The position numbers were made by a program, and so were the translations under genes. This document shows positions 47,088-60,538 of a stretch of 64,000 nt of DNA, one piece after another. The notes under the pieces are model-generated. The model was given only the letters and a program-made list of their open reading frames with translations, made no database searches and was not told the origin of the DNA. Positions within the stretch are counted from its first letter, which is position 1; each line of letters opens with the position of its first letter. This DNA is from Brevibacillus choshinensis (lineage in GTDB: Bacteria > Bacillota > Bacilli > Brevibacillales > Brevibacillaceae), in assembly GCF_016811915.1 (NCBI RefSeq), contig NZ_CP069127.1, positions 1,642,001 to 1,706,000 of the forward strand, written 5' to 3'.

Positions 47088-49001
47088 GTGGCACAAATCA
47101 ATGTGACTTTCCCGGATGGAGCAGTACGGCAGTACGAGGCCGGGACTACCATCGAAGACATCGCTGGTTCCATTAGCGCCAGCTTGAAGAAGAAAGCAGT
47201 AGCCGGTAAGAAAGACGGTAAAGTCGTTGACCTCTACACACCGCTGGAAGAGGATGCTGCGATTGAGATCGTGACCCTGGATTCACAGGATGGAGTGGAA
47301 GTATATCGTCACAGTACCGCCCACTTGCTGGCACAAGCGGTCAGACGCCTGTATGGCAGCGAAGTGAAATTCGGGATCGGTCCTGTAATCGAGGACGGTT
47401 TCTACTACGACATGGATATTCCGGTGTCCCTGAGCCCGGAAGACCTGGGTAAAATCGAAGCGGAAATGGAAAAAATCGTCAAGGAAGACCTGCCGATTCG
47501 CCGCAAAGTCGTGAGCCGCGCGGAAGCAACCGAGATTTTCCAAGGCCTGAATGATCATCTGAAGCTGGAGCTGATCCGCGACCTGCCGGAGGATGCGACC
47601 ATCACGCTGTATGAGCAAGGCGAATTCTTTGACCTGTGCCGCGGCCCTCACTTGCCATCGACTGGCTACATCAAAGCGTTCAAGCTGATGAACGTAGCAG
47701 GTGCTTACTGGCGTGGAAAAGCGGAGAACCAGGTGCTCCAGCGCATTTACGGCACTGCATGGCCGAAAAAAGCGGAACTTGAAGAACATCTGCACTTCCT
47801 CGAGGAAGCGAAAAAGCGCGATCACCGCAAACTGGGGAAAGAACTCGAATTGTTCATGTTCTCCGAAGAAGCGCCAGGCATGCCGTTCTACCTGCCAAAC
47901 GGCTTTACTGTCCGCAACGAGCTGGAGCAATTCTCCCGCCGTCTGCAGCAGCTCGCTCAATACACAGAGGTGCGCTCGCCATTCCTCATGAACGAGCGTC
48001 TCTGGCATCAATCCGGACACTGGGACCACTATCATGAGAACATGTACTTCTCCGAGGTGGACAACGCGACATACGCCCTGAAGCCGATGAACTGTCCAGG
48101 CCACATGCTTATTTACAAAAACGCGATGCATTCCTACCGTGATCTGCCGATTCGCTACTCCGAGTTTGGCCAGGTGCACCGCCATGAGTATTCCGGTGCC
48201 CTGAACGGCATGCTTCGCGTACGTACCTTCTGTCAGGATGATGCGCACGTATTTGTCCGTCCTGATCAGATCGAGAGTGAAATCAAGGCCATGATCAAAC
48301 TGATCGATACCATCTACAAAGTGTTCGGTTTCGAGTACAGCGTCGCGCTCTCCACTCGTCCGGAAGACTCCATGGGCTCCGACGAGCTGTGGGAGATCGC
48401 AGAAAGCTCTCTGCGTAAGGTACTGGACGACGCCGGTTTGCCGTATGAGATCAAGGAAGGAGACGGCGCGTTCTACGGACCGAAGATCGACTTCCAGATC
48501 ACAGATGCGCTGAAACGCCGCCACCAATGCGGTACGATCCAATTGGACTTCCAAATGCCTGAGAAATTTGACCTGACTTACGTGGGCCAAGACAATGAAA
48601 AACACCGTCCGGTTGTATTGCACCGTGCGATGTACGGCTCCATGGAGCGCTTCATCGGCATCCTGATCGAGCACTATGCAGGTGCATTCCCTGTATGGCT
48701 CACTCCGATCCAAGCTCGCCTGATGAACATCAGCGAAGTGCATATTCCATACGCGCAAGAAGTGAAGGATAAGCTGCAGCAAGCGGGTATCCGCGTCGAG
48801 CTGGATGCGCGCAATGAGAAAATCGGCTACAAAATCCGCGAAGCTCAGGTGCAAAAAATCCCGTACATGCTGGTCATCGGGGAGAAAGAAATGGAAGACG
48901 GAACTCTCTCCGTTCGCAGACGCGGCGTGGGAGATGAAGGCGCAATGACCGTAGATGCGTTCGTTGAAAAAATCCGCGCTGAAATCAATGAAATGAAGTA
49001 A
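47088..49001 (+). CDS. thrS: Threonyl-tRNA synthetase
   Basis: Class II synthetase of 637 aa. TGS domain (1-62), editing/SAD domain with HSTAHLLAQAV and CRGPHLPSTG, catalytic core with motif 2 near FGQVHRHEYSGAL-like residues and the zinc/active-site Cys in MNCPGHM, and an anticodon domain from about 540. The GTG start 47088 follows GGAAGGAAG. Controlled by the T-box upstream and followed by a strong terminator. Confidence 0.97.
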   Translation: MAQINVTFPDGAVRQYEAGTTIEDIAGSISASLKKKAVAGKKDGKVVDLYTPLEEDAAIEIVTLDSQDGVEVYRHSTAHLLAQAVRRLYGSEVKFGIGPVIEDGFYYDMDIPVSLSPEDLGKIEAEMEKIVKEDLPIRRKVVSRAEATEIFQGLNDHLKLELIRDLPEDATITLYEQGEFFDLCRGPHLPSTGYIKAFKLMNVAGAYWRGKAENQVLQRIYGTAWPKKAELEEHLHFLEEAKKRDHRKLGKELELFMFSEEAPGMPFYLPNGFTVRNELEQFSRRLQQLAQYTEVRSPFLMNERLWHQSGHWDHYHENMYFSEVDNATYALKPMNCPGHMLIYKNAMHSYRDLPIRYSEFGQVHRHEYSGALNGMLRVRTFCQDDAHVFVRPDQIESEIKAMIKLIDTIYKVFGFEYSVALSTRPEDSMGSDELWEIAESSLRKVLDDAGLPYEIKEGDGAFYGPKIDFQITDALKRRHQCGTIQLDFQMPEKFDLTYVGQDNEKHRPVVLHRAMYGSMERFIGILIEHYAGAFPVWLTPIQARLMNISEVHIPYAQEVKDKLQQAGIRVELDARNEKIGYKIREAQVQKIPYMLVIGEKEMEDGTLSVRRRGVGDEGAMTVDAFVEKIRAEINEMK

Positions 49002-49087: not shown

Positions 49088-50116
49088 TCAATGCCCGACG
49101 TACTTCGCATACAGGGTTCGGGCTATCGACAAGTCATCCGTCCCTTGCACCAGCACGCGTCCATCCTGAAAGAACACGATCGTGTAGTCGTCTGCATGAA
49201 AGCGGACCAAAAAGCGGTTGTGCTCGACTTCTCCGATGGGGGAGAATCGTTTGGCCAGCTTGTCGAGATCGATGCTAGCAGGATGGATGGGGCGAATCTG
49301 CACCGTGTCGCGTCCACAAAGCACCGCGAACTCCTCTGCCGCTCCTTCGCCTGCCGTTAAGGATTGAAATTCCCTCCTGACACAGGCGGGACAGTCTGGA
49401 TTTCGCCCCTTGGCAATAGGCAGTTGATCGTGGTCATTTTGCCAAACATCCACCTGCTCCAGGTACGGATTGAGATGATCGAAGTCGCCGATCAGCAGTT
49501 TGATGCCCTCTGTCGCCTGATAAGAGGCGATGATGGACACCAATGGCCCGATGATGCCGACTGTGTCGCAGGTTTCTCCCCGTCCCGCAGGAGCGTGAGG
49601 GAACAGGCAGCGAAAACAAGGGGTGATGCCTGGTCGGATGACGGCAAACATCCCGCGGGAATGGACAGCTCCTCCGTATACCCACGGAATGTCATGCTGG
49701 ATGGCGATATCGTTGATCAAATAACGGACCTGAAAATTATCCGTCCCATCGAGAATGAGGTCTGAATCAGCCAAGAGCGTCTGGGCGTTTCCTGCGTGCA
49801 GGTCTGCGATGATTCCTTCGACTTTCACGCTGGAATTAACCGCTTGAAGCTTGGCAGCAGCAGCCACTGCCTTTGGAATATGGCCCTGCGCATCCGCTTC
49901 ATCATAGAGCATCTGTCTCTGCAAGTTGCTTGCCTCCACGAAATCGCGGTCAATCATCCTCACGTGGCCGACTCCCGCACGAACGAGATGGTTGGCCAGC
50001 ACCGTTCCCAATGCTCCCATTCCTACGATCGCCACCTTTTTTTGCGCCAGCATGGACTGCCCGGCGGGACCGATCGGACCAAACAGCATTTGTCTGGAGT
50101 AACGGGTGGAGTCCAT
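49088..50116 (-). CDS. moeB: MoeB/ThiF-type sulfur-carrier adenylyltransferase
   Basis: E1-like enzyme (342 aa) that adenylates the C-terminal Gly-Gly of MoaD. Nucleotide motif GMGALGTVLANHL near residue 33, the Arg finger region YSRQMLFG, LILDGTDNFQVRYLIND, and two zinc pairs CFRC and CPAC. The C-terminal 90 residues are an extension without rhodanese motifs. Last gene of the regulator-tupABC operon, 20 bp behind tupC, so the carrier is activated as part of a tungsten-cofactor pathway. Confidence 0.9.
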   Translation of the reverse strand: MDSTRYSRQMLFGPIGPAGQSMLAQKKVAIVGMGALGTVLANHLVRAGVGHVRMIDRDFVEASNLQRQMLYDEADAQGHIPKAVAAAAKLQAVNSSVKVEGIIADLHAGNAQTLLADSDLILDGTDNFQVRYLINDIAIQHDIPWVYGGAVHSRGMFAVIRPGITPCFRCLFPHAPAGRGETCDTVGIIGPLVSIIASYQATEGIKLLIGDFDHLNPYLEQVDVWQNDHDQLPIAKGRNPDCPACVRREFQSLTAGEGAAEEFAVLCGRDTVQIRPIHPASIDLDKLAKRFSPIGEVEHNRFLVRFHADDYTIVFFQDGRVLVQGTDDLSIARTLYAKYVGH

Positions 50117-50136
50117 ATTTTTCCTCCTTTACGCAT

Positions 50137-50877
50137 TCAGCAAATCATTCGCCCGAACACAAAGTCCTGCAGCTCCTCGCTGACAGGCCGCTGAAAAAAG
50201 CGATCCGTATCCGCTTGCTCCGCAATCCTGCCCTTATGCAGAAAGAGGCAGGCGTCTGCCAGTCTTTTGGCTTGGGGGAGGTTGTGCGTGATCATGAGGG
50301 TGGTGGTGCGCCTGTCTCGATGGAACATCTGGATGACGCGCTCAAAAATGGTGATGTTGTACGGATCGAGGCTTGCGGTAGGCTCATCGAGCAGCAGCAG
50401 TTCCGGCTCGCAGACAAGCGCTCTTGCCAATGCGATCCGCTGCGCTTCCCCGCCCGATAAAGTCTGAGCTTGCTGTGAATGCAGGTGGGAGAGCTCTACC
50501 TGCTCCAAAGCTGCTTCGACCCGCATGCTGATCTGGTTCCGGTCGAGCTTCCGATAGCGCAGCCCCAGTGCGACGTTGTCAAAGACGGTCGCCTGAAACA
50601 TGGAAGGCTTTTGTGCCACGAAGGCCATCTGCCGCTGGATGGGAACGCTCTGGCGGTAGGAGAGAGTGGACAAGTCCACCGTGCTGCCAAACAGATCCAT
50701 CCTGCCTCGGACCGGCTTCTCGAGCAGATTGATGACACGGAGCAAGGTGCTTTTTCCAGCGCCGCTCGGACCCACAATGCCGTAAATCCGCCCGCGTTCA
50801 AAGACTGCTTGCTCGACCTGCAGCACTGTCCTTCCCCCGAAGGTGACCTCGAGATCGTGCAGCTCCAATCGATTCAT
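50137..50877 (-). CDS. tupC: Tungstate-type ABC transporter ATPase
   Basis: ABC ATPase of 246 aa. Walker A GPSGAGKST, Q-loop region, signature LSGGEAQRIALARAL, Walker B ELLLLDEPTASLD and H-loop His in MITHNLPQAK. Placed with a TupB-type permease and TupA-type receptor, so tungstate (or molybdate) import is likely. Stop/start junctions with neighbours are tight, with its ribosome site AGAGGTG over the tupB stop. Confidence 0.9.
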   Translation of the reverse strand: MNRLELHDLEVTFGGRTVLQVEQAVFERGRIYGIVGPSGAGKSTLLRVINLLEKPVRGRMDLFGSTVDLSTLSYRQSVPIQRQMAFVAQKPSMFQATVFDNVALGLRYRKLDRNQISMRVEAALEQVELSHLHSQQAQTLSGGEAQRIALARALVCEPELLLLDEPTASLDPYNITIFERVIQMFHRDRRTTTLMITHNLPQAKRLADACLFLHKGRIAEQADTDRFFQRPVSEELQDFVFGRMIC

Positions 50878-50881
50878 CTGC

Positions 50882-51544
50882 TCACCTCTGTCCCGTTTTC
50901 ATTTGATTCATCATTCCTACCATGAGAAAGCTGTTGAACAAAAAGCTGATGGCCAGCAGGACGAGACCCAATTGCAAGCCGGCAGAGAAATTTCCCGTGC
51001 GTGTCTCCAGGATGATGGCGGTCGTCATGACGCGGGTATGATGCTCGATATTTCCCCCGACCAGCATGACAGCACCGACCTCGGAGATGGCTCTGCCAAA
51101 TGCGGCTGCCACTCCCGACCAAATGCCGCCGCGCGCCTCCCGGATGATGGTAAGCATCAGCTGCAGGGGACTTGCTCCCAGACTTTTTGCAGTCTCCCAG
51201 TAGGCTCGCTCCTTCCCATGCACGGCGGCCATCGTGAGGCCGGTCATGATCGGTGTCACGAGGACGACCTGTGCGATGATCATGGCTTCGGCGCTGAACA
51301 GAAGGTCCAGTGAGCCGAGGGGGCCGTATCGCGAGAGGAGCATGTATACGAGGACGCCTACCAGGACGGGAGGCAGCCCCATGCAGGTATAGATCAGGGC
51401 GACAATCAGGCGCTTGCCAGGAAAGGTGTAGAGGCCGAGGAGAGCGCCGATGGGAATACCGGCGAGCATACCGATCAGAACGGAAGTACTCGTGACCTTC
51501 AGGGAGAGCAAGATAACCTCCCATACATCCTGGGTAAGCATCAT
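50882..51544 (-). CDS. tupB: Tungstate-type ABC transporter permease
   Basis: Permease of about 220 aa with five or six helices and the loop HGKERAYWETAKSLGASPLQLMLTI, which is the ATPase-contact segment. Typical TupB features are GGIWSGVAAAFGRAISEVGAVMLVGGNI and HTRVMTTAIILETRTGNF. GTG 51556 directly abuts the tupA stop; ATG 51544 with AGGTG nine bases upstream is preferred but not certain. Confidence 0.9.
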   Translation of the reverse strand: MMLTQDVWEVILLSLKVTSTSVLIGMLAGIPIGALLGLYTFPGKRLIVALIYTCMGLPPVLVGVLVYMLLSRYGPLGSLDLLFSAEAMIIAQVVLVTPIMTGLTMAAVHGKERAYWETAKSLGASPLQLMLTIIREARGGIWSGVAAAFGRAISEVGAVMLVGGNIEHHTRVMTTAIILETRTGNFSAGLQLGLVLLAISFLFNSFLMVGMMNQMKTGQR

Positions 51545-51556
51545 GGTTCCATTCAC

Positions 51557-52426
51557 CTAGCGCTTTTTGGCATCGGGAACGAACAAGCCTTTCCCGTACT
51601 CTTTTTGTCCAAATTCTCCGATCAGCTTCTGCCCTTCCTCACCGGTGAAAAACTCGATCAGCTTCATGCCTTCTTCCTTTTTGGCTGACGATTTGACCTG
51701 GATGATTCCGTACGGGTTGAGCAGTGATTTGTCTCCTTGCATCATGACCGCCAGATTCAGCTTGCGGGAGAGGAAGGTGGCTTCGTCAGTCAAGGTATAC
51801 GCTTTTTTCTCGTCGCTCATCTGCAGGGTCTCGCCCATTCCTTGCCCGGAAGAGAGGTACCAGCTGTCCGCTGGCTTGATCTTGGCTTCCGCCCAGATGC
51901 TCTTTTCTTTTTTGTCCGTACCGGAATCATCGCCGCGGGAGATAAAGGCAGCCTTCGCTTCAGAGATTTTGCCGAAGGCTTCTTTGGCCGTCTTGGCCTG
52001 CTTGACGCCGGCAGGGTCTTCTGGCGGTCCTACGATGTAAAACTGGTTGTACATCACGTCGTACGCGTTGATGCCAAAGCCTTTGGACACGAATTCGTCC
52101 TCTGACTTGCGGGCGTGGACCAGCAGGACGTCGGCATTGCCGTCTTCCCCGAGCTTGATGGCTTGTCCGGTTCCGACCGCCACTACCTTTACTTTGATCC
52201 CGGACTGCTTTTCAAAAATAGGCAGCAAGTAATCGAGCAAGCCGGAATCTTGCGTGCTCGTTGTGGTGGCGAGGGTGATTTCCTTCGGCGCTGTTTTCTC
52301 CGGAGCAGGAGCAGGAGCAGGCGCAGCGGCAGAGGACTGCTGGGGAGCCTGCGAGGAACAGGCGGAGAGCAGCAAAATCAAGGACAACAGAAAAAAAGAC
52401 GTGACAAAACGAAAATGCTTCTTCAT
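51557..52426 (-). CDS. tupA: Tungstate-binding lipoprotein
   Basis: Substrate receptor of about 290 aa. Signal peptide with lipobox LSAC, an Ala-Pro-rich linker, then the PBP fold. TupA hallmark TTTSTQDSGLLDYLLP near residue 55, and GTGQAIKLGEDGNADVLLVHAR. The TTTS and Ser-Arg-Gly-Asp-Asp-Ser-Gly (SRGDDSGT) positions are those that bind the oxyanion in TupA proteins. The preference for tungstate over molybdate is from family knowledge plus the neighbouring tungsten enzyme. Confidence 0.92.
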   Translation of the reverse strand: MKKHFRFVTSFFLLSLILLLSACSSQAPQQSSAAAPAPAPAPEKTAPKEITLATTTSTQDSGLLDYLLPIFEKQSGIKVKVVAVGTGQAIKLGEDGNADVLLVHARKSEDEFVSKGFGINAYDVMYNQFYIVGPPEDPAGVKQAKTAKEAFGKISEAKAAFISRGDDSGTDKKEKSIWAEAKIKPADSWYLSSGQGMGETLQMSDEKKAYTLTDEATFLSRKLNLAVMMQGDKSLLNPYGIIQVKSSAKKEEGMKLIEFFTGEEGQKLIGEFGQKEYGKGLFVPDAKKR

Positions 52427-52457
52427 CATTTCCACTCCTTATCGAATTGTGCAATCG

Positions 52458-53384
52458 TCAATACATTCTGTCTATTTCTTTGCCGGTTTGCGAGACGTTG
52501 TAGCCGCCTTGGGCCACGATCGCTTGTTTAAAGACCGGATCACGCAGCACGGAGAGGAGCTCGATAAAACGATCCTGCCGGGCGAGGCGAGTAGGGATCA
52601 CAAGGTCGTAGCGCTCTTCCTGTATCGGGAAAAAATCCAGGCCGAGTCCGCGAGCGACACTTTCGATCCCGAGCGCTGCGTCCGCGTTCCCTTGCAGGAC
52701 AGCGGCCGCGGTCGCGTAATGAGTGGTCAGCTCTACATCGTAGCCGGGGAGCGCTTCAGGAGCGATCCCTTTCTGCTGCATGGTGAAGTCCAGGAGCACA
52801 CGTGTGCCGGAGCCGCGTTGCCGATTTACGATCCGATGGCTCCCGCAAAGAAATTCATCCCAGCTGGTGATCATCCGCGGATTTCCCTTGGGAACGACAA
52901 AGCCTTGCCAGCGATTGACCAAATTGACTACTGTTACCCCTTCGTTTGGCAAAAGGCAGCGGATGTACGGCAGATTGTATTCGCCGGTTGTCCGATCCAA
53001 GAGGTGCGTCCCAGCCATCTCGACGCGGCCTTTATACAGCTCGATGAGCCCATCCAGACTGCCGCTGAAGGCTGGCAAAAGGGTAATGCCACGCTCCGCC
53101 AGCTTGCGAGCGAGCAGATCGATCGTCAAATCATGACTGCCGGCAAACAAAATTTCATAGGCTTGTTCTTGCTGGCGGCGAGGAGTTACGGCTGCGAATG
53201 GGTGACGATCCTCGCGGGATTTATTCATTTGCATGAAGGCGTCAAGGTCTGAACGCAAGATTCGCAGGGTCCTTCCGATTTTGGAAGCAGGCAGTTCTTT
53301 GCGCTTGATCATTTCATATACGGTATATCGGGTAAGCTTTAGCTCCGCTGCAACCTCGTCCGGGGTTAAGTAATCGCTTTCCAA
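52458..53384 (-). CDS. One-component regulator: excisionase-type HTH plus PBP-like sensor
   Basis: A 308-aa DNA-binding protein. Residues 1-52 form an excisionase/MerR-like HTH (LTPDEVAAELKLTRYTVYEM, then KELPASKIGRTLRI). Residues about 78-305 form a periplasmic-binding-protein-like domain with GSHDLTIDLLARKL, NRQRGSGTRVLLD and ATAAAVLQGNADAALGI. Such proteins sense tungstate, molybdate or a cofactor-related ligand. It is the first gene of the operon regulator-tupA-tupB-tupC-moeB and is divergent from the oxidoreductase, with phased repeats between. The same sensor domain is fused to the second MoeA. Confidence 0.85.
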   Translation of the reverse strand: MESDYLTPDEVAAELKLTRYTVYEMIKRKELPASKIGRTLRILRSDLDAFMQMNKSREDRHPFAAVTPRRQQEQAYEILFAGSHDLTIDLLARKLAERGITLLPAFSGSLDGLIELYKGRVEMAGTHLLDRTTGEYNLPYIRCLLPNEGVTVVNLVNRWQGFVVPKGNPRMITSWDEFLCGSHRIVNRQRGSGTRVLLDFTMQQKGIAPEALPGYDVELTTHYATAAAVLQGNADAALGIESVARGLGLDFFPIQEERYDLVIPTRLARQDRFIELLSVLRDPVFKQAIVAQGGYNVSQTGKEIDRMY

Positions 53385-53404
53385 AATGTCACCCCCTTTT
53401 TCAG

Positions 53405-53455
53405 TTTGGTTGAATTGGTTCTAGTTAGTTGCAGTTGGTTTTACATGATTTGGTC
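53405..53455. promoter_or_regulatory. Phased TTGGTT repeats between regulator and oxidoreductase
   Basis: TTGGTT at 53406, 53415 and 53435, TTAGTT at 53425 and a TTGGTC at 53450. The first four are 9, 10 and 10 bp apart, one helical turn, so they lie on one face of the DNA. They are the best candidate binding sites for the adjacent HTH/PBP regulator. Confidence 0.55.
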
Positions 53456-53624
53456 TATAAATAACATACTTTACCAAGGGACAGCTAGGCAAGAAAATAA
53501 TCGAAAAATTAGTAATATTGCTGGATTTTCGTGATGAGAAGGAAGGAATACCCATATAATAGTCGAAAGAGTACGTATATTTTGCGTGTTCACTATGGAT
53601 GAAGAAATGAGGAGGGGAAGAGCA

Positions 53625-55433
53625 ATGAACTTGGGGGGATTCAAAAACCGCGAAATGCTGGTTGATCTCTCGGCGGGCGTTGTGGACTATCGACCAATCA
53701 ATGAGGAGCTGGCACGGACCTACATCGGCGGCCGTGGATTGGGAGTGAAGTACGTATACGATAACGGCGCACAGGTGGAGCCGTTCTCGGAGGACAACAT
53801 CCTCTGCCTGATGACCGGTCCGGTGACGGGCTCTCGTTCGTCCATGAGCGGGCGCCTCTGCATGGTGACGAAATCGCCTTTGACAGGCACCGTAACCGAC
53901 TCGCACATGGGCGGCTGGTCCGCAGCGCGGCTGAAATGGTCCGGCATTGACAATGTCATCTTCAAGGGGGCGAGCGACAAGCCCGTGTATCTCTACATCG
54001 AGAACGGCCAGGGCGAATTGCGCGATGCCAGCGAACTGTGGGGGCAAGGCACCCGGGCAACGGTAAAGGCGATGCAGGACCGCTACGGCAAAGAAGACCT
54101 GAGTGTGATCTGCATCGGACAAGCGGGAGAAAATCTGGTTCGCTACGCAGGATTTATGAATGAGCACGACCGTGCGGCAGGTCGCGGCGGTACGGGAGCA
54201 GTAGCTGGCTCCAAAAAACTCAAGGCGATCGTCATCAAGGCAGCGCAAAAAGGAAACATGCCGCAGCCGGCGCAGGATGAGGAGTACAAAAAGGCCAACC
54301 AAAAGGCGCTCAAGGCCATCATGGAAGGCGGGCTTACCGCTCCGAAAAAAGGCGGCCTCTCCGTCTATGGAACGAACGTATTGACGAGCATCATTAATGA
54401 AGTCGGCGCACTTCCTACCATGAACTCCAAGTTCACACACTGGGATGGTGCTGAGGGACACAGCGGGGAAACGGTCAACGCTACACTGCTGGTAGCCGAC
54501 AATACCTGCCACGCATGCCCGGTCGCTTGCAAAAAAGAAGTGGAAGTCAAAGAGGGCAAGTACAAGACGCGCGTAGAGAGCTTTGAGTACGAGTCCGGCT
54601 GGGCGCTCGGGGCCAACTGCGGCGTGAGCGATGCCGCTCCGATTTCGTACCTGATCAATATGTGCAACGAACACGGGATGGACACCATTGAGCTAGGCAA
54701 TACCTTGTCCTGTATGATGGAAGCGTACGAGAGAGGCTTGACCGAGGAAAAAGTCGACTGGGGCGACGCTGACCGCATGATCGAGCTGACCGAGATGATG
54801 GTCTTCCGCAAAGGAGTGGGGGACATTCTCGCAGAGGGAACCGCCCGTGCGGCAAAAGCCTTTGGTGACGAAAACCTGGCTATGTGCGTCAAAGGGCAGG
54901 CGATCCCGGCGTACGATCCGCGCGGCATCCAAGGAATTGGACTCGGATATGCGACCAGCAACCGCGGCGCGTGCCACCTGCGCGGTTATACAGTCGCCAG
55001 CGAAATCGCCGGAATCCCGATGCCGACCGACCGTCTGGTTCCAGAGGGCAAAGGGGAGCTTTTGAAAGTGTTCCAGGATCTTTTGGCTTTCTCTGACTCC
55101 ATGAATATTTGCAAGTTCTCATCCTTCTCCGAGAATGCCGAGCACTACGCCGAGCAGTATTCCACGATGACAGGCGTTGAGGTGACGGCGGATGACGTGA
55201 TGAAGATTGGGGAGCGCATTTACAATCTGGAGCGCCATTACAACAACCTGGCGGGCTTTGACAAGCGTGAGGACGACCATTTGCCAAAACGCTTTACAGA
55301 TGAGCCGGCAAGTGGAAACAGCGCGGGTCATGTGAGCCGGATGGATGTCATGCTGGACGAATACTATCAGGTCCGCGGCTGGGTCGATGGTGTCGTGCCG
55401 CAAGAAAAGCTCAAGGAACTGAAAATTGTGTAA
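53625..55433 (+). CDS. aor: Tungsten-dependent aldehyde:ferredoxin oxidoreductase
   Basis: A 602-aa AOR-family enzyme that oxidises aldehydes to acids (or reduces acids) using a tungsten bis-pterin and a 4Fe-4S cluster. N-terminal pterin domain with YIGGRGLGVKY and GPVTGSRSSMSGR; the cluster Cys are in CHACPVAC (about 295-302) with a fourth Cys in MNICKF (about 495). DPRGIQGIGLGYATSNRGACH contacts the cofactor in known AORs. ATG 53625 follows AGGAGGGG. Monocistronic; ends at a bidirectional terminator. The gene set around it supplies tungstate and cofactor. Confidence 0.93.
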   Translation: MNLGGFKNREMLVDLSAGVVDYRPINEELARTYIGGRGLGVKYVYDNGAQVEPFSEDNILCLMTGPVTGSRSSMSGRLCMVTKSPLTGTVTDSHMGGWSAARLKWSGIDNVIFKGASDKPVYLYIENGQGELRDASELWGQGTRATVKAMQDRYGKEDLSVICIGQAGENLVRYAGFMNEHDRAAGRGGTGAVAGSKKLKAIVIKAAQKGNMPQPAQDEEYKKANQKALKAIMEGGLTAPKKGGLSVYGTNVLTSIINEVGALPTMNSKFTHWDGAEGHSGETVNATLLVADNTCHACPVACKKEVEVKEGKYKTRVESFEYESGWALGANCGVSDAAPISYLINMCNEHGMDTIELGNTLSCMMEAYERGLTEEKVDWGDADRMIELTEMMVFRKGVGDILAEGTARAAKAFGDENLAMCVKGQAIPAYDPRGIQGIGLGYATSNRGACHLRGYTVASEIAGIPMPTDRLVPEGKGELLKVFQDLLAFSDSMNICKFSSFSENAEHYAEQYSTMTGVEVTADDVMKIGERIYNLERHYNNLAGFDKREDDHLPKRFTDEPASGNSAGHVSRMDVMLDEYYQVRGWVDGVVPQEKLKELKIV

Positions 55434-55454
55434 CGACCGCATCGCTTGGCAAGG

Positions 55455-55488
55455 AAAAAAGGTGGAAACTTGCTTTCCACCTTTTTTT
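55455..55488. terminator. Bidirectional terminator after the oxidoreductase
   Basis: Stem AAAAAAGGTGGAAA / TTTCCACCTTTTTT with a five-base loop. Confidence 0.92.
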
Positions 55489-55505
55489 ACTCTACGATCC
55501 TCATT

Positions 55506-55778
55506 CTATCCGCCCACTCGCATGACTTTGATGCGAAAGCGTTTCATGAGCTGAGCGAAGCACTCTTCATTCGCGGCCGAAAAGTGGATAAAGACGGCGC
55601 TGACATGAAAACGGGAGGTAATCGTCACCGTCTCCTCGCGAAGCACCTCGGCATTCCATTCTTCGCCCTCCACCAAGATAGGCAGAGACTCAGTCAGGGC
55701 CGCACCGCCGCACTCGATCAGGTAAGACACGAGATGGGACACGGGGATTCCGCGCACCTCTATCGTTTGCTCGACCAT
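55506..55778 (-). CDS. Small conserved-context protein ending in Gly-Gly
   Basis: A 90-aa protein of unknown function located two bases behind moaD. It begins MVEQTIEVRGIPVSHLVSYL and ends KVMRVGG. The C-terminal Gly-Gly resembles sulfur carriers, but no ubiquitin-like fold is evident from the sequence. ATG 55778 has GGAGG five bases upstream, within the end of moaD. Tight coupling to moaD opposite the AOR gene suggests a role in tungsto-pterin enzyme assembly (inference). Confidence 0.65.
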   Translation of the reverse strand: MVEQTIEVRGIPVSHLVSYLIECGGAALTESLPILVEGEEWNAEVLREETVTITSRFHVSAVFIHFSAANEECFAQLMKRFRIKVMRVGG

Positions 55779-55779
55779 A

Positions 55780-56055
55780 TCAGCCTCCTGCCACCGGCGG
55801 GAACAGCGCAAACTGGTCTTCCTCCGTCACGCGGGTCTGAAGTCCGTCTGCATGAATGACATTGCGCCCATTGATAAATACATGGACAAACGGTTTGAAT
55901 GTTCGCTCCGGTGTAAAGATTTCTTCGTCCAAAGCAGGATACATCCGAATCAAGGCTTCGAGAATATCAATGACCCGATCGCCGCTGTCCATGGGGACTT
56001 CCACCGCTTTTGCCTGGCAGATTTCTCGAAAGTTGGCAAAGACCTTTACCATCAT
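55780..56055 (-). CDS. moaD: MoaD/ThiS-type sulfur carrier
   Basis: Ubiquitin-like sulfur carrier of 91 aa that supplies the dithiolene sulfurs of pterin cofactors. Starts MMVKVFANFREICQ, has DGLQTRVTEEDQFALFPPVAGG, and ends with the required Gly-Gly. It is activated by MoeB-type E1 encoded nearby. No MoaE is seen in the window, so either MoaE is elsewhere or this MoaD serves a dedicated tungsten route. Confidence 0.9.
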   Translation of the reverse strand: MMVKVFANFREICQAKAVEVPMDSGDRVIDILEALIRMYPALDEEIFTPERTFKPFVHVFINGRNVIHADGLQTRVTEEDQFALFPPVAGG

Positions 56056-56118
56056 TTTGAATATTCCCCTTTTTCTCTTTATTATACTATCTTGACGTTA
56101 AAAAAATCTAAGGTTGAT

Positions 56119-56212
56119 AGTATAAGTGCAACATAGCGAGACTTCGAGCACAGTGAGAAAGCGAGACTTGTGCCCCTTGGGTACTATGGCTTGTTAAGCC
56201 AAGTTTTCTAAT
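56119..56212. repeat. Short repeat element, copy B (moeA leader)
   Basis: Begins AGTATAAGTGCAAC and ends AAGCCAAGTTTTCTAAT, matching the ends of copy A at 46995-47049, but the middle differs and is 39 bp longer. It contains CATAG/CTATG and GCACA/TGTGC pairings and GGCTT/AAGCC next to the T-run. It may be a small non-autonomous element or a structured leader; no transposase is seen. Confidence 0.6.
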
Positions 56213-56260
56213 ACTTGATAGATTGACCAAACTAAACGATCTAGACTATTGGAGGCAATC

Positions 56261-57493
56261 ATGAAATTCTTCAATGTGAAAACAGTGACGGAGACGTTGG
56301 AAGTGATTGCAGGTGAATTTCAACCGAACCGACCTCCTATCGAGGTGCCATTGATAGATGCTCTGGAGATGGTACTGGCAGAAGATGTCCGGTCGGGTGA
56401 GCAGGTCCCTCATTTTGCCCGTTCAACGGTTGACGGATTTGCGGTCCTGGCCCGTGATACGTATGGAGCTTCTGATTCATTGCCGGCCTTCCTCGATGTG
56501 ACGGGGAGAATCGAGATGGGCAAGGAAGCAGCGGTGAGACTCATGGAAGGACAAGCTCAATCGATCCCGACTGGCGGGATGCTGCCGAGCGGCGCCGACA
56601 GTGTCGTCATGATCGAGCATGTAGAGGAAGTCGGCGACATGCTCAATGTGTACAGACAGGTAGCGCCTGGTGAAAACATCATTCGCGCTGGAGATGACGT
56701 AAAAGCAGGTGAGCTCGTCATGTCGGCCGGCCAGCGGCTTCGCCCGCAAGATCTGGGTGTCCTGTCTGCGATCGGCAAGACGAAGGTACGGGTATACCCC
56801 CGTCCTGTCGTGGCGATCCTGTCGACGGGAGACGAAATCGTTCCCGCAGATAAAAAGGATCTAGCCCCGGGAGAAATTCGCGATATTAACAGCATAACGA
56901 TTGCTGCGGCAGCAAGGCAGTGCGGCGCAGTGGTCATAGAGGGCGGGATCGTGTCCGACGATTACGCTTCCTTTGCGCTGCGAGCAAAGGAGCTGTTCGA
57001 AGAGTCCGACCTGCTCCTCCTGTCGGGCGGCAGCTCGGTAGGGACACGTGACTATACCGAGCAGGTGATGCAGTCATTGGGGGAGCCGGGAGTCCTTGTT
57101 CACGGCGTTTCCATCAAGCCAGGCAAGCCGACGATCCTCGCCAAAGCTGGCAGGAAGCCTGTCATGGGGCTTCCGGGTCACCCCGCTTCTGCCTTGATTA
57201 TTTTCCATCTGTTTGTCGCCCCCCTGCTGCAAAGGCTGCAAGGACAAAAGCCCGCAGCATACCATCAGCGCATTCCTGCACGCATTTCTCGCAATATTGC
57301 GTCTGCAGTGGGACGCTCGGACTACATCCGTGTTAAGCTGGAGGAGAGAGAAGACGGAATGTGGGCTGTACCTGTCTTCGGAAAATCCGGATTGATCTCG
57401 ACGTTGGTCAAAAGTGACGGCATGGTCGAGATATCTGCAAATAAAGAAGGCATTTTGGAAGGCGAACTCGTGCATGTTCATCTATTTCAATAA
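56261..57493 (+). CDS. moeA: Molybdopterin molybdenumtransferase MoeA (copy 1)
   Basis: Metal-insertion enzyme of 410 aa. MoeA domains: N-terminal with AEDVRSGEQVPHFARSTVDG, the TGGMLPSGADSVVMIEHV segment, a central MogA-like domain with STGDEIV, GEIRDINS and LSGGSSVGTRDY, GLPGHPAS and the C-terminal beta barrel. It inserts the metal into adenylated pterin. ATG 56261 follows GGAGG. It heads an operon moeA-moeA/PBP-moaA. Confidence 0.93.
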   Translation: MKFFNVKTVTETLEVIAGEFQPNRPPIEVPLIDALEMVLAEDVRSGEQVPHFARSTVDGFAVLARDTYGASDSLPAFLDVTGRIEMGKEAAVRLMEGQAQSIPTGGMLPSGADSVVMIEHVEEVGDMLNVYRQVAPGENIIRAGDDVKAGELVMSAGQRLRPQDLGVLSAIGKTKVRVYPRPVVAILSTGDEIVPADKKDLAPGEIRDINSITIAAAARQCGAVVIEGGIVSDDYASFALRAKELFEESDLLLLSGGSSVGTRDYTEQVMQSLGEPGVLVHGVSIKPGKPTILAKAGRKPVMGLPGHPASALIIFHLFVAPLLQRLQGQKPAAYHQRIPARISRNIASAVGRSDYIRVKLEEREDGMWAVPVFGKSGLISTLVKSDGMVEISANKEGILEGELVHVHLFQ

Positions 57494-57538
57494 GCACCAG
57501 ATACAAAGAAAGACGATAGCTACCGCAGGAGGAGTACG

Positions 57539-59467
57539 ATGCGCAAAATCTACTTAGAAGATACGCCGCTTACGGAAGCGCAGCAGCAGATCGCGAACCG
57601 GATTCGCTTCAAGCCGCTGGTGGAGGTGATCCCCACGCGAGAAGCATTGGGACGAGTCACTGCCCAGCCCATTTACGCCAAGGTGTCCATGCCGAATTTC
57701 CATGCTTCCGCCATGGACGGGATAGCGGTAAAGGCGGAAAAAACGTACGGAGCGGATGAGCAGCACCCGGTACGGCTGAAGCTTGCGATCGACTATGTCG
57801 AAGTCGATACGGGAGACCCCATTCCAGACGGCTTCGACGCGGTCATCATGATCGAGCATGTCCATCAGATGGATGAAGAGACGGTCGAAATATTGGAGGC
57901 TGTAGCTCCTTGGCAGCATATTCGACCGATCGGCGAGGATGTCGTGATCGGCGAAGTGATCGTCCCGGATCGGCACAAGCTGCGTCCGGTTGACCTGGGT
58001 GCGATTTTGGCCGGCGGCAATGTGACGATTCCGGTTTTGCGCAAGCCCCGAGTCGCGATCATTCCGACGGGGACCGAACTGATCGAGCCCTCCGACAGTG
58101 TGGCCGAGGGAGAGATCATCGAGTTTAATGGAACCGTCTTTGCTGCCTACTTGCAGGAGTGGGGAGCCGTGCCAGTCTATCACGGAATCGTGAAAGACGA
58201 ATACGAGCTGATCAAATGTGCAGTAAAATCCGCCGTCCAGGACGCAGATATGGTACTCTTAAATGCAGGATCATCTGCTGGACGTGAAGATTTCACGGTT
58301 CATGTGGTAGGCGAGCTGGGAGAAGTCTTGACGCATGGCGTTGCCACTCGCCCAGGAAAACCGGTCGTAGTGGGAGTCGTCGATGAAAAGCCAGTGATCG
58401 GATTGCCTGGCTATCCCGTATCGGCCTATTTGAATTTGGAATGGTTTGCTCGCTCGCTCATCTTTCAATATTACGGCATGCTGGAGCCCCAGCGGCAGCG
58501 GATATCCGCGACGGTCGGGCGGCGCATCGTATCGGTGATGGGGGCAGAGGACTTTATCCGGGTCACCATCGGTTGCATGGATGGACAATTTATTGCCAAC
58601 CCTTTGACTAGATCCGCAGGAGTCACGATGTCCATGGTGCGGGCTGACGGGATGCTGCGCATTCCGCCAGGGAACCTCGGCTATGAGCAAGGTGAAGTGG
58701 TGGAAGTAGAGCTGTATCGTCCGTTGGAGCAAATTCAAAACACGATAGTCTCCACGGGCAGCCACGATCTTTCCATGGACGTGCTCCATTCCCTCATACG
58801 CAAGAGGAATCCGGCGCGTTTTCTTGTCTCCTCTCATGTCGGAAGCATGGGCGGTATTTTGGCCATCCAAAAAGGGGAAGCGCATATCGCGGGTGTCCAT
58901 TTGTTTGATGAGGAAACAGGCACGTATAATCAGTCGTATATCGAAAAGTATTTGCACGACAAAGAGGTCGTATTGATCCAGCTTGTGTACCGACAGCAGG
59001 GCTGGTTTGTCAAAAAAGGAAATCCACTTGGAATCTCGTCTGTACACGATCTGACGAAGCCGGGCATTACGTATATCAACCGCCAACGCGGTGCAGGGAC
59101 GAGGCTTTTATTCGACTATCTGCTGGCCCAGGAAGCTGTGAACAGGGCGGATATCTACGGCTATTCCCGGGAGGCTGTCTCTCATCTGAGCGTGGCAGCG
59201 GCTGTCGCGGGAGGAACAGCTGACGCCGGCCTCGGCATCTACTCTGCGGCGGCAGCGATGGACCTTGACTTTATCCCTGTTTCGGAAGAACGGTATGACC
59301 TGGTCATGACCAAAGCGTTTTACGAGAGCAGCCAAGGGCAGGAGCTTTTGTCCTGTATCCGTTCGGAGGAGTTCGCTTCAGAAATGGAAGCCTTGGGCGG
59401 ATACAGCTGCCGTGATTCAGGAAAGATCGTCTATTCAACAGGATTGTCAGAAATATGTGAAGAGTAA
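57539..59467 (+). CDS. MoeA fused to a periplasmic-binding-like domain (MoeA copy 2)
   Basis: A 642-aa fusion. Residues 1-400 form a full MoeA (MPNFHASAMDGIAV, IPTGTELIEPSDS, NAGSSAGREDFT, GLPGYPVSAYLN). Residues about 405-640 form a PBP-like domain almost superimposable on the sensor of the 52458-53384 regulator (TGSHDLSMDVLHSL, NRQRGAGTRLLFDYLL, AAAVAGGTADAGLGI, SEERYDLVMTKAFY). The domain could sense the loaded metal or cofactor. Two MoeA copies in one operon suggest separate Mo and W insertion (inference). Start ATG follows GCAGGAGGAG. Confidence 0.92.
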   Translation: MRKIYLEDTPLTEAQQQIANRIRFKPLVEVIPTREALGRVTAQPIYAKVSMPNFHASAMDGIAVKAEKTYGADEQHPVRLKLAIDYVEVDTGDPIPDGFDAVIMIEHVHQMDEETVEILEAVAPWQHIRPIGEDVVIGEVIVPDRHKLRPVDLGAILAGGNVTIPVLRKPRVAIIPTGTELIEPSDSVAEGEIIEFNGTVFAAYLQEWGAVPVYHGIVKDEYELIKCAVKSAVQDADMVLLNAGSSAGREDFTVHVVGELGEVLTHGVATRPGKPVVVGVVDEKPVIGLPGYPVSAYLNLEWFARSLIFQYYGMLEPQRQRISATVGRRIVSVMGAEDFIRVTIGCMDGQFIANPLTRSAGVTMSMVRADGMLRIPPGNLGYEQGEVVEVELYRPLEQIQNTIVSTGSHDLSMDVLHSLIRKRNPARFLVSSHVGSMGGILAIQKGEAHIAGVHLFDEETGTYNQSYIEKYLHDKEVVLIQLVYRQQGWFVKKGNPLGISSVHDLTKPGITYINRQRGAGTRLLFDYLLAQEAVNRADIYGYSREAVSHLSVAAAVAGGTADAGLGIYSAAAAMDLDFIPVSEERYDLVMTKAFYESSQGQELLSCIRSEEFASEMEALGGYSCRDSGKIVYSTGLSEICEE

Positions 59468-59518: not shown

Positions 59519-60538
59519 GTGATAGAGCAAGTACGTGATACATTAAATCGCCCTCTCCGAGATCTGCGTATTTCCGTGACAGACAAATGCAATTTTCGTT
59601 GCCAATACTGCATGCCCGCCGAAATATTCGGACCGGACTTTGAATTCCTCCCGCAGCACAAGCTATTGTCATTTGAGGAAATTACGCGATTGACGGCGAT
59701 CTTTACGTCACTGGGTGTAGGGAAGATCAGGATTACGGGCGGAGAGCCGTTGATGCGGAAGGACTTGCCTTCATTAATTCGCATGATCAGACAGGTGGAG
59801 GGCGTCCATGATATCGCCATGACAACCAATGGCTCACTCCTCGCCCGTCATGCAAAAGCGTTGAAGGAGGCAGGGCTGGACCGCGTGACGGTCAGCTTGG
59901 ACAGTCTGGACGACGAGCGCTTTGGGAAGATGAACGGCAGAGGCTACCATGTGTCTGACGTGCTGAAAGGGATCGAGGCTGCAGCAGAGGCGGGACTGTC
60001 GATCAAGATGAACATGGTGGTGCAGCGCGGGGTCAACGATCAGGATATTCTGCCGATGGCGCGGTATTTTCGTGAGCAGAAGCACACCCTGCGTTTCATC
60101 GAATTCATGGATGTGGGAAACAGTAATGGATGGAAGCTGGATCAGGTCGTACCTTCCAGTGAGATCGTGAAGATGATCCACGAGGAAATGCCTCTCGAGC
60201 CGATCGATCCCAATTACTACGGAGAGGTTGCCTCTCGTTACCGCTATGTAGGATCGGAAGAGGAAATCGGTTTGATCTCCTCCGTCACGCAGGCGTTTTG
60301 TTCGACCTGCACACGTGCGCGTCTATCAGCAGAGGGCAAGCTCTACAACTGTCTGTTCGCATCGATCGGGAGTGATCTGCGCGCTCCTCTGCGAGACGGA
60401 CAGAGCGATGAGGAAATCCGCGAGCTGATTCGGGAGATCTGGGAAAAGCGCGATGAACGCTACTCGGAAATCAGACTGAACGATACACCTGGCCTCGTAA
60501 AGCGCTCCAAGGTGGAAATGTCCCATATTGGCGGATGA
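59519..60538 (+). CDS. moaA: GTP 3',8-cyclase MoaA
   Basis: Radical SAM enzyme (339 aa) for the first step of pterin cofactor synthesis. CNFRCQYC (Cys 24, 28, 31) is the SAM cluster; [18 protein letters not shown] (about 261-278) is the second cluster binding GTP. The C-terminus MSHIGG carries the conserved Gly-Gly needed by MoaA. GTG start behind AAGGAGAGTG. It is translated 51 bp after the MoeA fusion. Confidence 0.95.

Follow-up and report, generated by a model that had tools for sequence, protein, structure and literature searches.

Two questions about tungsten stand open: how a cell tells it from molybdenum once inside, and why many microbes keep two MoeA proteins (the latter stated explicitly in PMC10102598). 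The window, a stretch of 64,000 nucleotides from Brevibacillus choshinensis (contig NZ_CP069127.1, positions 1,642,001 to 1,706,000), touches on both. It encodes a DNA-binding regulator and a MoeA-type insertase that carry the same periplasmic-binding-protein-like (PBP_like) domain, and it raises the question of whether transcription factor and enzyme read one ligand. The initial annotation paired the two genes within 52458-59467, a span which also takes in aor and the remaining genes between them; the tupABC-moeB genes (49088-52435) belong with both to one unit.

On the minus strand this unit reads taoR-like regulator, tupA, tupB, ATPase gene and moeB/thiF; on the plus strand it reads aor, moeA, moeA-PBP and moaA. 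The same order recurs among relatives from the same family of genomes. The best match of the tungstate-binding protein TupA (51557..52435, minus) is NF041772 TupA, at 218 bits but below the model cut-off of 400, and its TTTS, R and T pocket residues are invariant within its family. It is followed by the permease TupB (50882..51556, minus; NF038017 255 bits, NF041773 TupB 165 bits), by an ATPase assigned as TupC from ABC_tran and its position after tupB (50137..50877, minus), and by a moeB/thiF-type adenylyltransferase (49088..50116, minus; NF009123 390 bits, cut-off 510) whose place is conserved in relatives. The plus-strand genes encode an aldehyde:ferredoxin oxidoreductase of the tungstoenzyme family (aor, 53586..55433; AFOR_N and AFOR_C), a MoeA without the PBP domain (56249..57493; MoeA_N, MoCF_biosynth and MoeA_C), MoeA-PBP (57539..59467) and MoaA (59519..60538; Radical_SAM and Mob_synth_C). 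Two small minus-strand ORFs (55506-56055), convergent with aor, lie between aor and moeA: one encodes 101 aa (55506-55811), the other a 91-aa protein (55780-56055) that looks MoaD/ThiS-like by eye and has GG at its end. Relatives also have small ORFs in this place. Rfam identifies no Moco/Tuco riboswitch in the cluster; its sole match is a T-box leader (RF00230; 46701-46944, plus) that precedes the gene for threonyl-tRNA synthetase at 47088.

The regulator gene (52458..53384, minus) runs from a TTG start at 53384 to a stop at 52458 and is overlapped by a longer ORF on the opposite strand. Its 308-aa product combines an HTH_17/excisionase-type DNA-binding domain (53223..53372, minus; residues 5-54; PF12728 59.4 bits, with TIGR01764 excise also matching at 51.7 bits) and a PBP_like domain (52479..53162, minus; residues 75-302), in which the profile search places PF12727 at residues 93-281 with 215.9 bits (Pfam cut-off 27 bits). 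PF12728 and PF12727 in a single protein is the TaoR-family architecture, and the genomic association of that family with tungstate/molybdate transport and aor genes is found here too: in the window and in nine relatives from the same family of genomes the gene stands directly before tupA and divergent from aor. Judged by architecture and setting, the regulator is a member of the described TaoR family.

The moeA-PBP gene (57539..59467, plus; 642 aa) is intact and, with 760 bits against NCBIfam PRK14498 (cut-off 534), its product is by profile match a MoeA-PBP fusion of the described kind. One chain holds the MoeA part (57566..58714, plus; residues 10-392; MoeA_N, MoCF_biosynth and MoeA_C) and, C-terminal to it, the PBP_like domain (58742..59425, plus; residues 402-629; PF12727 245.3 bits). 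A model of the full-length protein matches the structures of MoeA, gephyrin E and Cnx1E. In alignment, E. coli MoeA D59, T100, E188, D228, D259, P298 and P301 correspond to D60, T91, E180, D220, D251, P290 and P293 of the window protein. These seven E. coli positions are what we take to be the active-site residues of the insertase, known from mutant structures; by this alignment, the insertase site of MoeA-PBP is intact.

The initial annotation had spotted four motifs at matching places in the two proteins, and all are present: GSHDL (TaoR 82-86, MoeA-PBP 407-411), NRQRGSGTR (TaoR 187-195) matching NRQRGAGTR (MoeA-PBP 514-522), AAAVLQGNADAALGI (TaoR 226-240) matching AAAVAGGTADAGLGI (MoeA-PBP 553-567), and ERYDLV (TaoR 257-262, MoeA-PBP 584-589). 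The shared domain that it proposed for the HTH regulator and the MoeA tail is likewise borne out, PF12727 being found in both and BLASTP aligning them over 227 residues at 40% identity (166 bits, E 4e-51). Since the alignment spans the whole domain and PF12727 scores far above its cut-off in both, the similarity reflects homology rather than chance.

A shared domain with exact short motifs, in two genes only about 4 kb apart, could also have arisen by recent domain exchange or gene conversion between these neighbours, as the initial annotation had expected a phylogeny to show. In our tree the nearest relatives of each window domain have its own architecture: the regulator falls among tup-linked regulators (73% to the closest one sampled) and MoeA-PBP among other MoeA-PBPs (52% to the closest one sampled), whereas the pair are 40% identical to each other, and the motif match is kept across many unrelated genomes. 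Recent exchange is thus a most improbable explanation. The GSHD/NRQ form is common to lineages in several phyla, so the sharing of the domain is old.

A search of the genome (6.17 Mb, one contig) gives a third strong copy of PF12727, in another HTH-PBP regulator that lies at genome position 2327044, divergent from modABC. Residues at the predicted ligand loops are common to the window pair and absent from this modABC-adjacent paralogue. Across 26 genomes of the genus, each of the 13 with MoeA-PBP also carries, some 6 kb from it, a second HTH-PBP gene, and the 13 lacking MoeA-PBP have a single HTH-PBP gene, which is modA-linked wherever the surroundings were fetched. In a single genome of the genus the tungsten locus is present in two copies (L058, G009:C1:3115000-3131000, and G009:C1:3237092-3243870); both moeA-PBP copies score identically, as do both regulator copies, which suggests a recent duplication or an assembly duplicate.

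The difference between the paralogues extends to a sample without duplicates, drawn from Bacillota, Desulfobacterota, Chloroflexota and others, that comprises 99 HTH-PBP and 149 MoeA-PBP sequences. (One entry, L232 2-886, seemed a tup-linked regulator; it groups with MoeA-PBP, is the cut end of one and was removed from the counts.) All 46 modA-linked regulators have G-[QC]D, one residue shorter, together with NRE. Among tupA/aor-linked regulators, GS[HND]D with NR[QPN] occurs in 34 of 41; G-QD is paired with NR[RG] in the remaining seven, which belong to Oscillospiraceae and related Clostridia. MoeA-PBP is nearly uniform (GSH in 148/149, NRQ in 149/149). Bacillota W-type regulators (GSHD) and Desulfobacterota W-type regulators (mostly GSND) form separate groups, and MoeA-PBP sequences of several phyla are fixed for the ligand-loop residues GSHD/NRQ of the former as well. 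When all columns are ranked, S83, H84, Q189 and F200 best separate the Mo-type from each of the three W-type groups. The columns of the code are thus the sharpest in the alignment, and they sit at helix N-termini of the predicted cleft. Other residues are invariant in Mo- and W-types alike: D85, H127, R158, N187, R188, R195, H222 and E257.

The split between GSHD/NRQ and G-QD/NRE might be a marker of lineage that says nothing about the metal. The Mo-type regulators do form a single clade with support of 99-100, even with the two signature stretches excluded, and MoeA-PBP, the Desulfobacterota regulators and the Bacillota W-type regulators all fall outside it. The AU test does not reject a grouping of MoeA-PBP with the Bacillota W-type regulators (p-AU 0.28), and the change between the two forms may have run in either direction. 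On these sequences the change would have happened essentially once. Because the Mo-type regulators are one clade, most of the association between residues and metal rests on that one change plus a later E-to-R/G substitution, and the association could in part be a clade marker. Against a marker pure and simple, the three fully diagnostic sites (those where the Mo-type has one fixed state and the W-types share a state or have similar ones) all fall in predicted ligand loops, and a group nested in the Mo clade has moved to an aor/TupA setting and changed the same site. This group comprises the seven exceptions above (L117, L120, L121, L125, L132, L140 and L146), gut-type clostridial regulators with NRR/NRG where their relatives have NRE. 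They keep the Mo-type G-QD, have moeA and moeA-PBP immediately after them and aor in divergent orientation, and come from genomes with TupA in 6/7 and ModA in 3/7. The pattern suggests a second switch of metal setting, one that altered the same E. We therefore regard a lineage marker without bearing on the metal as rather doubtful.

AlphaFold models both proteins confidently (pLDDT 94.2 for the regulator, 91.2 for MoeA-PBP, and about 96-99 in the PBP_like core of the regulator). Among solved folds, VIA-align places the regulator domain closest to PstS (Z 19.1), ModA (17.8) and ModA with tungstate (1wod, 17.6), followed by WtpA with tungstate (Z 16.5) and TupA (3lr1, 15.9); the ModA/WtpA/TupA/PstS matches cover 205-225 residues with an rmsd of 2.8-3.8. 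As modelled, the domain is of the oxyanion-binding type of PBP fold. The secondary structures of the regulator and MoeA-PBP domains agree element by element in the models. In that of the regulator, GSHD sits just ahead of the N-terminus of one helix, GS 108-109 at that of a second, NRQRGSGT just before and into that of a third, and H222 at that of a fourth. Such helix N-termini are the usual places of ligand contact in the PBP fold. The initial annotation had named differing pocket residues as what would count against one common ligand; at the level of sequence no such difference arose.

Sequence searches of solved structures yielded no convincing homologue, and neither the regulator nor MoeA-PBP matched a TupA or ModA profile; the domain would at most function in the manner of such a protein. 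Aligned by hhalign (weakly, at a probability of 68%), TupA pairs its SRGDDSGT with NRQRGSGT of the regulator and its H107 with H127, so that the Arg and Thr of the TupA tungstate site align with the regulator domain; with the MoeA-PBP domain the alignment is weak (probability 12%), and ModA aligns less well than TupA with no clear pocket match. For TupA itself, published work shows that R118 governs the binding of oxyanions and that tungstate is not bound normally without it, and names T124 and H59 as residues of the site (PMC5517513).

What, then, is the ligand? We consider it rather probable, from sequences and models taken together, that the cleft of both domains binds tungstate and that the regulator and MoeA-PBP both read it. 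Of the proposal of one ligand for both, the part that stands is the common domain, the common register of secondary structure and the common predicted ligand-loop residues, the ligand itself being deduced from these rather than observed. Between the two ligands first put forward, tungstate and the cofactor, fold neighbours and the TupA alignment favour tungstate, and both stay candidates.

A domain fused to a cofactor-making enzyme might instead read the finished W/Mo cofactor or a pterin intermediate (MPT, MPT-AMP) and not the free oxyanion; the regulator would then measure cofactor supply, and the MoeA domain would hold substrate or product. Many charged residues are invariant in all groups (three Arg, two His, Asp and Glu), and the invariant residues outnumber those named for TupA, which leaves room for a ligand bigger than an oxyanion. 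LysR-type effector domains, binders of larger ligands, are also among the fold neighbours, and metal-specific residues would suit a metal-loaded cofactor too. The best fold matches, however, are binders of tetrahedral oxyanions, the TupA-site Arg and Thr are those that align, and the regulators adjoin oxyanion transporters, with the residue class following the transporter. On balance a cofactor or pterin ligand appears improbable.

The two domains could also have parted ways, the regulator sensing tungstate while the domain of MoeA-PBP is mainly structural, docks a partner or holds another anion. At only 40% identity, in separate clusters of the tree, such divergence is conceivable, and MoeA-PBP shows no Mo/W variation of the code, so that metal specificity cannot be probed within that group. 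An unused pocket would, however, not be expected to keep the Bacillota W-type ligand-loop residues fixed across several phyla, and we think diverged ligands unlikely.

Under the preferred reading, with tungstate as the common ligand, both proteins would contain a cytoplasmic version of one periplasmic-binding-protein domain whose cleft takes up tungstate. In the regulator, tungstate binding would change the assembly of HTH heads on a tandem-repeat operator between the divergent operons, setting tungstate uptake (taoR-tupABC-moeB) and tungstate use (aor) against each other. In MoeA-PBP, the domain would capture tungstate beside the insertase active site and then hand it over or license insertion. 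Tungstate as the ligand of both, the head-to-tail assembly, the direction of regulation and the hand-over in MoeA are what we infer from these data. A wider proposal, on which we are close to evenly divided and lean slightly towards doubt, is that PF12727 is a general intracellular reader of molybdate and tungstate, with two sites in the ligand loops fixing its specificity: GS[HND]D plus NRQ would select tungstate and G-QD plus NRE molybdate, and one tungstate-type pocket would serve both transcription and the loading of the insertase.

The predicted operator lies between the divergent genes (53405..53440, minus) and consists of AACCAA, AACTAA, AACCAA and AACCAA at steps of 10, 10 and 9 bp. 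Related arrays occur in the same intergenic stretch of nine relatives from the same family of genomes; chains of four units are found upstream of 7 of 18 Bacillota W-type regulators, and in none of 100 shuffles. In Mo-type regulators the chained unit is TATAA[CT] (at least three units in 7 of 40 regions, none in shuffles); the W-type unit is not chained in the Mo-type group, nor the Mo-type unit in the W-type group. We infer from this pattern that the array is an operator of helically phased direct repeats at about one turn. The exact three-unit pattern has its sole match in the 6.17 Mb genome at 53415-53440. A wider regulon was considered and set aside: there are no exact operator arrays elsewhere in the genome, and matches with one mismatch occur at the level of the reversed-pattern control. 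Beside the operator there is one match to a sigma-70 promoter, against 0.6 expected, which carries no weight. An example of the modA-linked tandem repeat, with TATAAC/TATAAT units spaced about 10-11 bp apart in the gap that separates the regulator from modA, is L035 2614-2760; relatives have it in the same gap.

The combination of direct repeats at one-turn spacing with an excisionase-type HTH agrees with head-to-tail binding of the BldC kind. By analogy with BldC and the RdfS-type proteins, the HTH of the regulator is a wHTH of the MerR/excisionase type (PMC5859096, PMC11963761). BldC sites are direct repeats with 9 bp per protomer (PMC5859096), compared with about 10-11 bp in the repeats here; unlike those proteins, our regulator carries a ligand domain on its HTH. 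TupA, ModA, WtpA and PstS share the two-lobed fold predicted here, and the Arg and Thr named for TupA have counterparts, but identity is about 12%, and the domain here is preceded in its chain by an HTH or a MoeA domain in place of an export signal.

Neither the regulator nor MoeA-PBP is new; both are of known kinds. Rajeev et al. in 2019 (Environ Microbiol 21:784) reportedly found that TaoR of D. vulgaris is an activator of aor and a repressor of tupABC when tungsten is replete, and are said to have already predicted relatives in Firmicutes. The window regulator likewise has HTH_17 with a PBP-like domain and stands beside tupABC and aor, and differs in that its operator repeat was derived for its own family of genomes. 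TaoR is described as HTH plus PBP-like elsewhere, with Rajeev et al. 2019 cited (PMC11980592), as it is in PMC10102598 too. A D. vulgaris screen of chlorate-resistance genes for the tungsten cofactor of AOR has among its hits the PF12727 MoeA (DVU0951) as well as the TaoR-family regulator DVU3193, and making that cofactor takes the plain MoeA in addition to the PF12727 one (PMC10102598); as both moeA genes are required there, MoeA-PBP is not simply 'the tungsten MoeA'. Identical in architecture to MoeA-PBP is the archaeal-type MoeA1, a MoeA-PBP fusion with C-terminal PF12727, found beside a plain moeA and with TupA, which co-occurs in 86% of cases (PMC11733289). From this co-occurrence its authors proposed tungsten handling and a groove that joins the PBP cleft to the active site of the MoeA part; they mention no regulator bearing this domain, and the word 'transcription' is absent from their text. 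What is added here is the residue code, the finding that MoeA-PBP carries it too, and the operator repeats, part of which earlier TaoR work may contain. With the code, sequence could serve to annotate a TaoR-type regulator as linked to tungsten or to molybdenum, and the shared ligand domain that bears this code links transcription factor, transporter and insertase.
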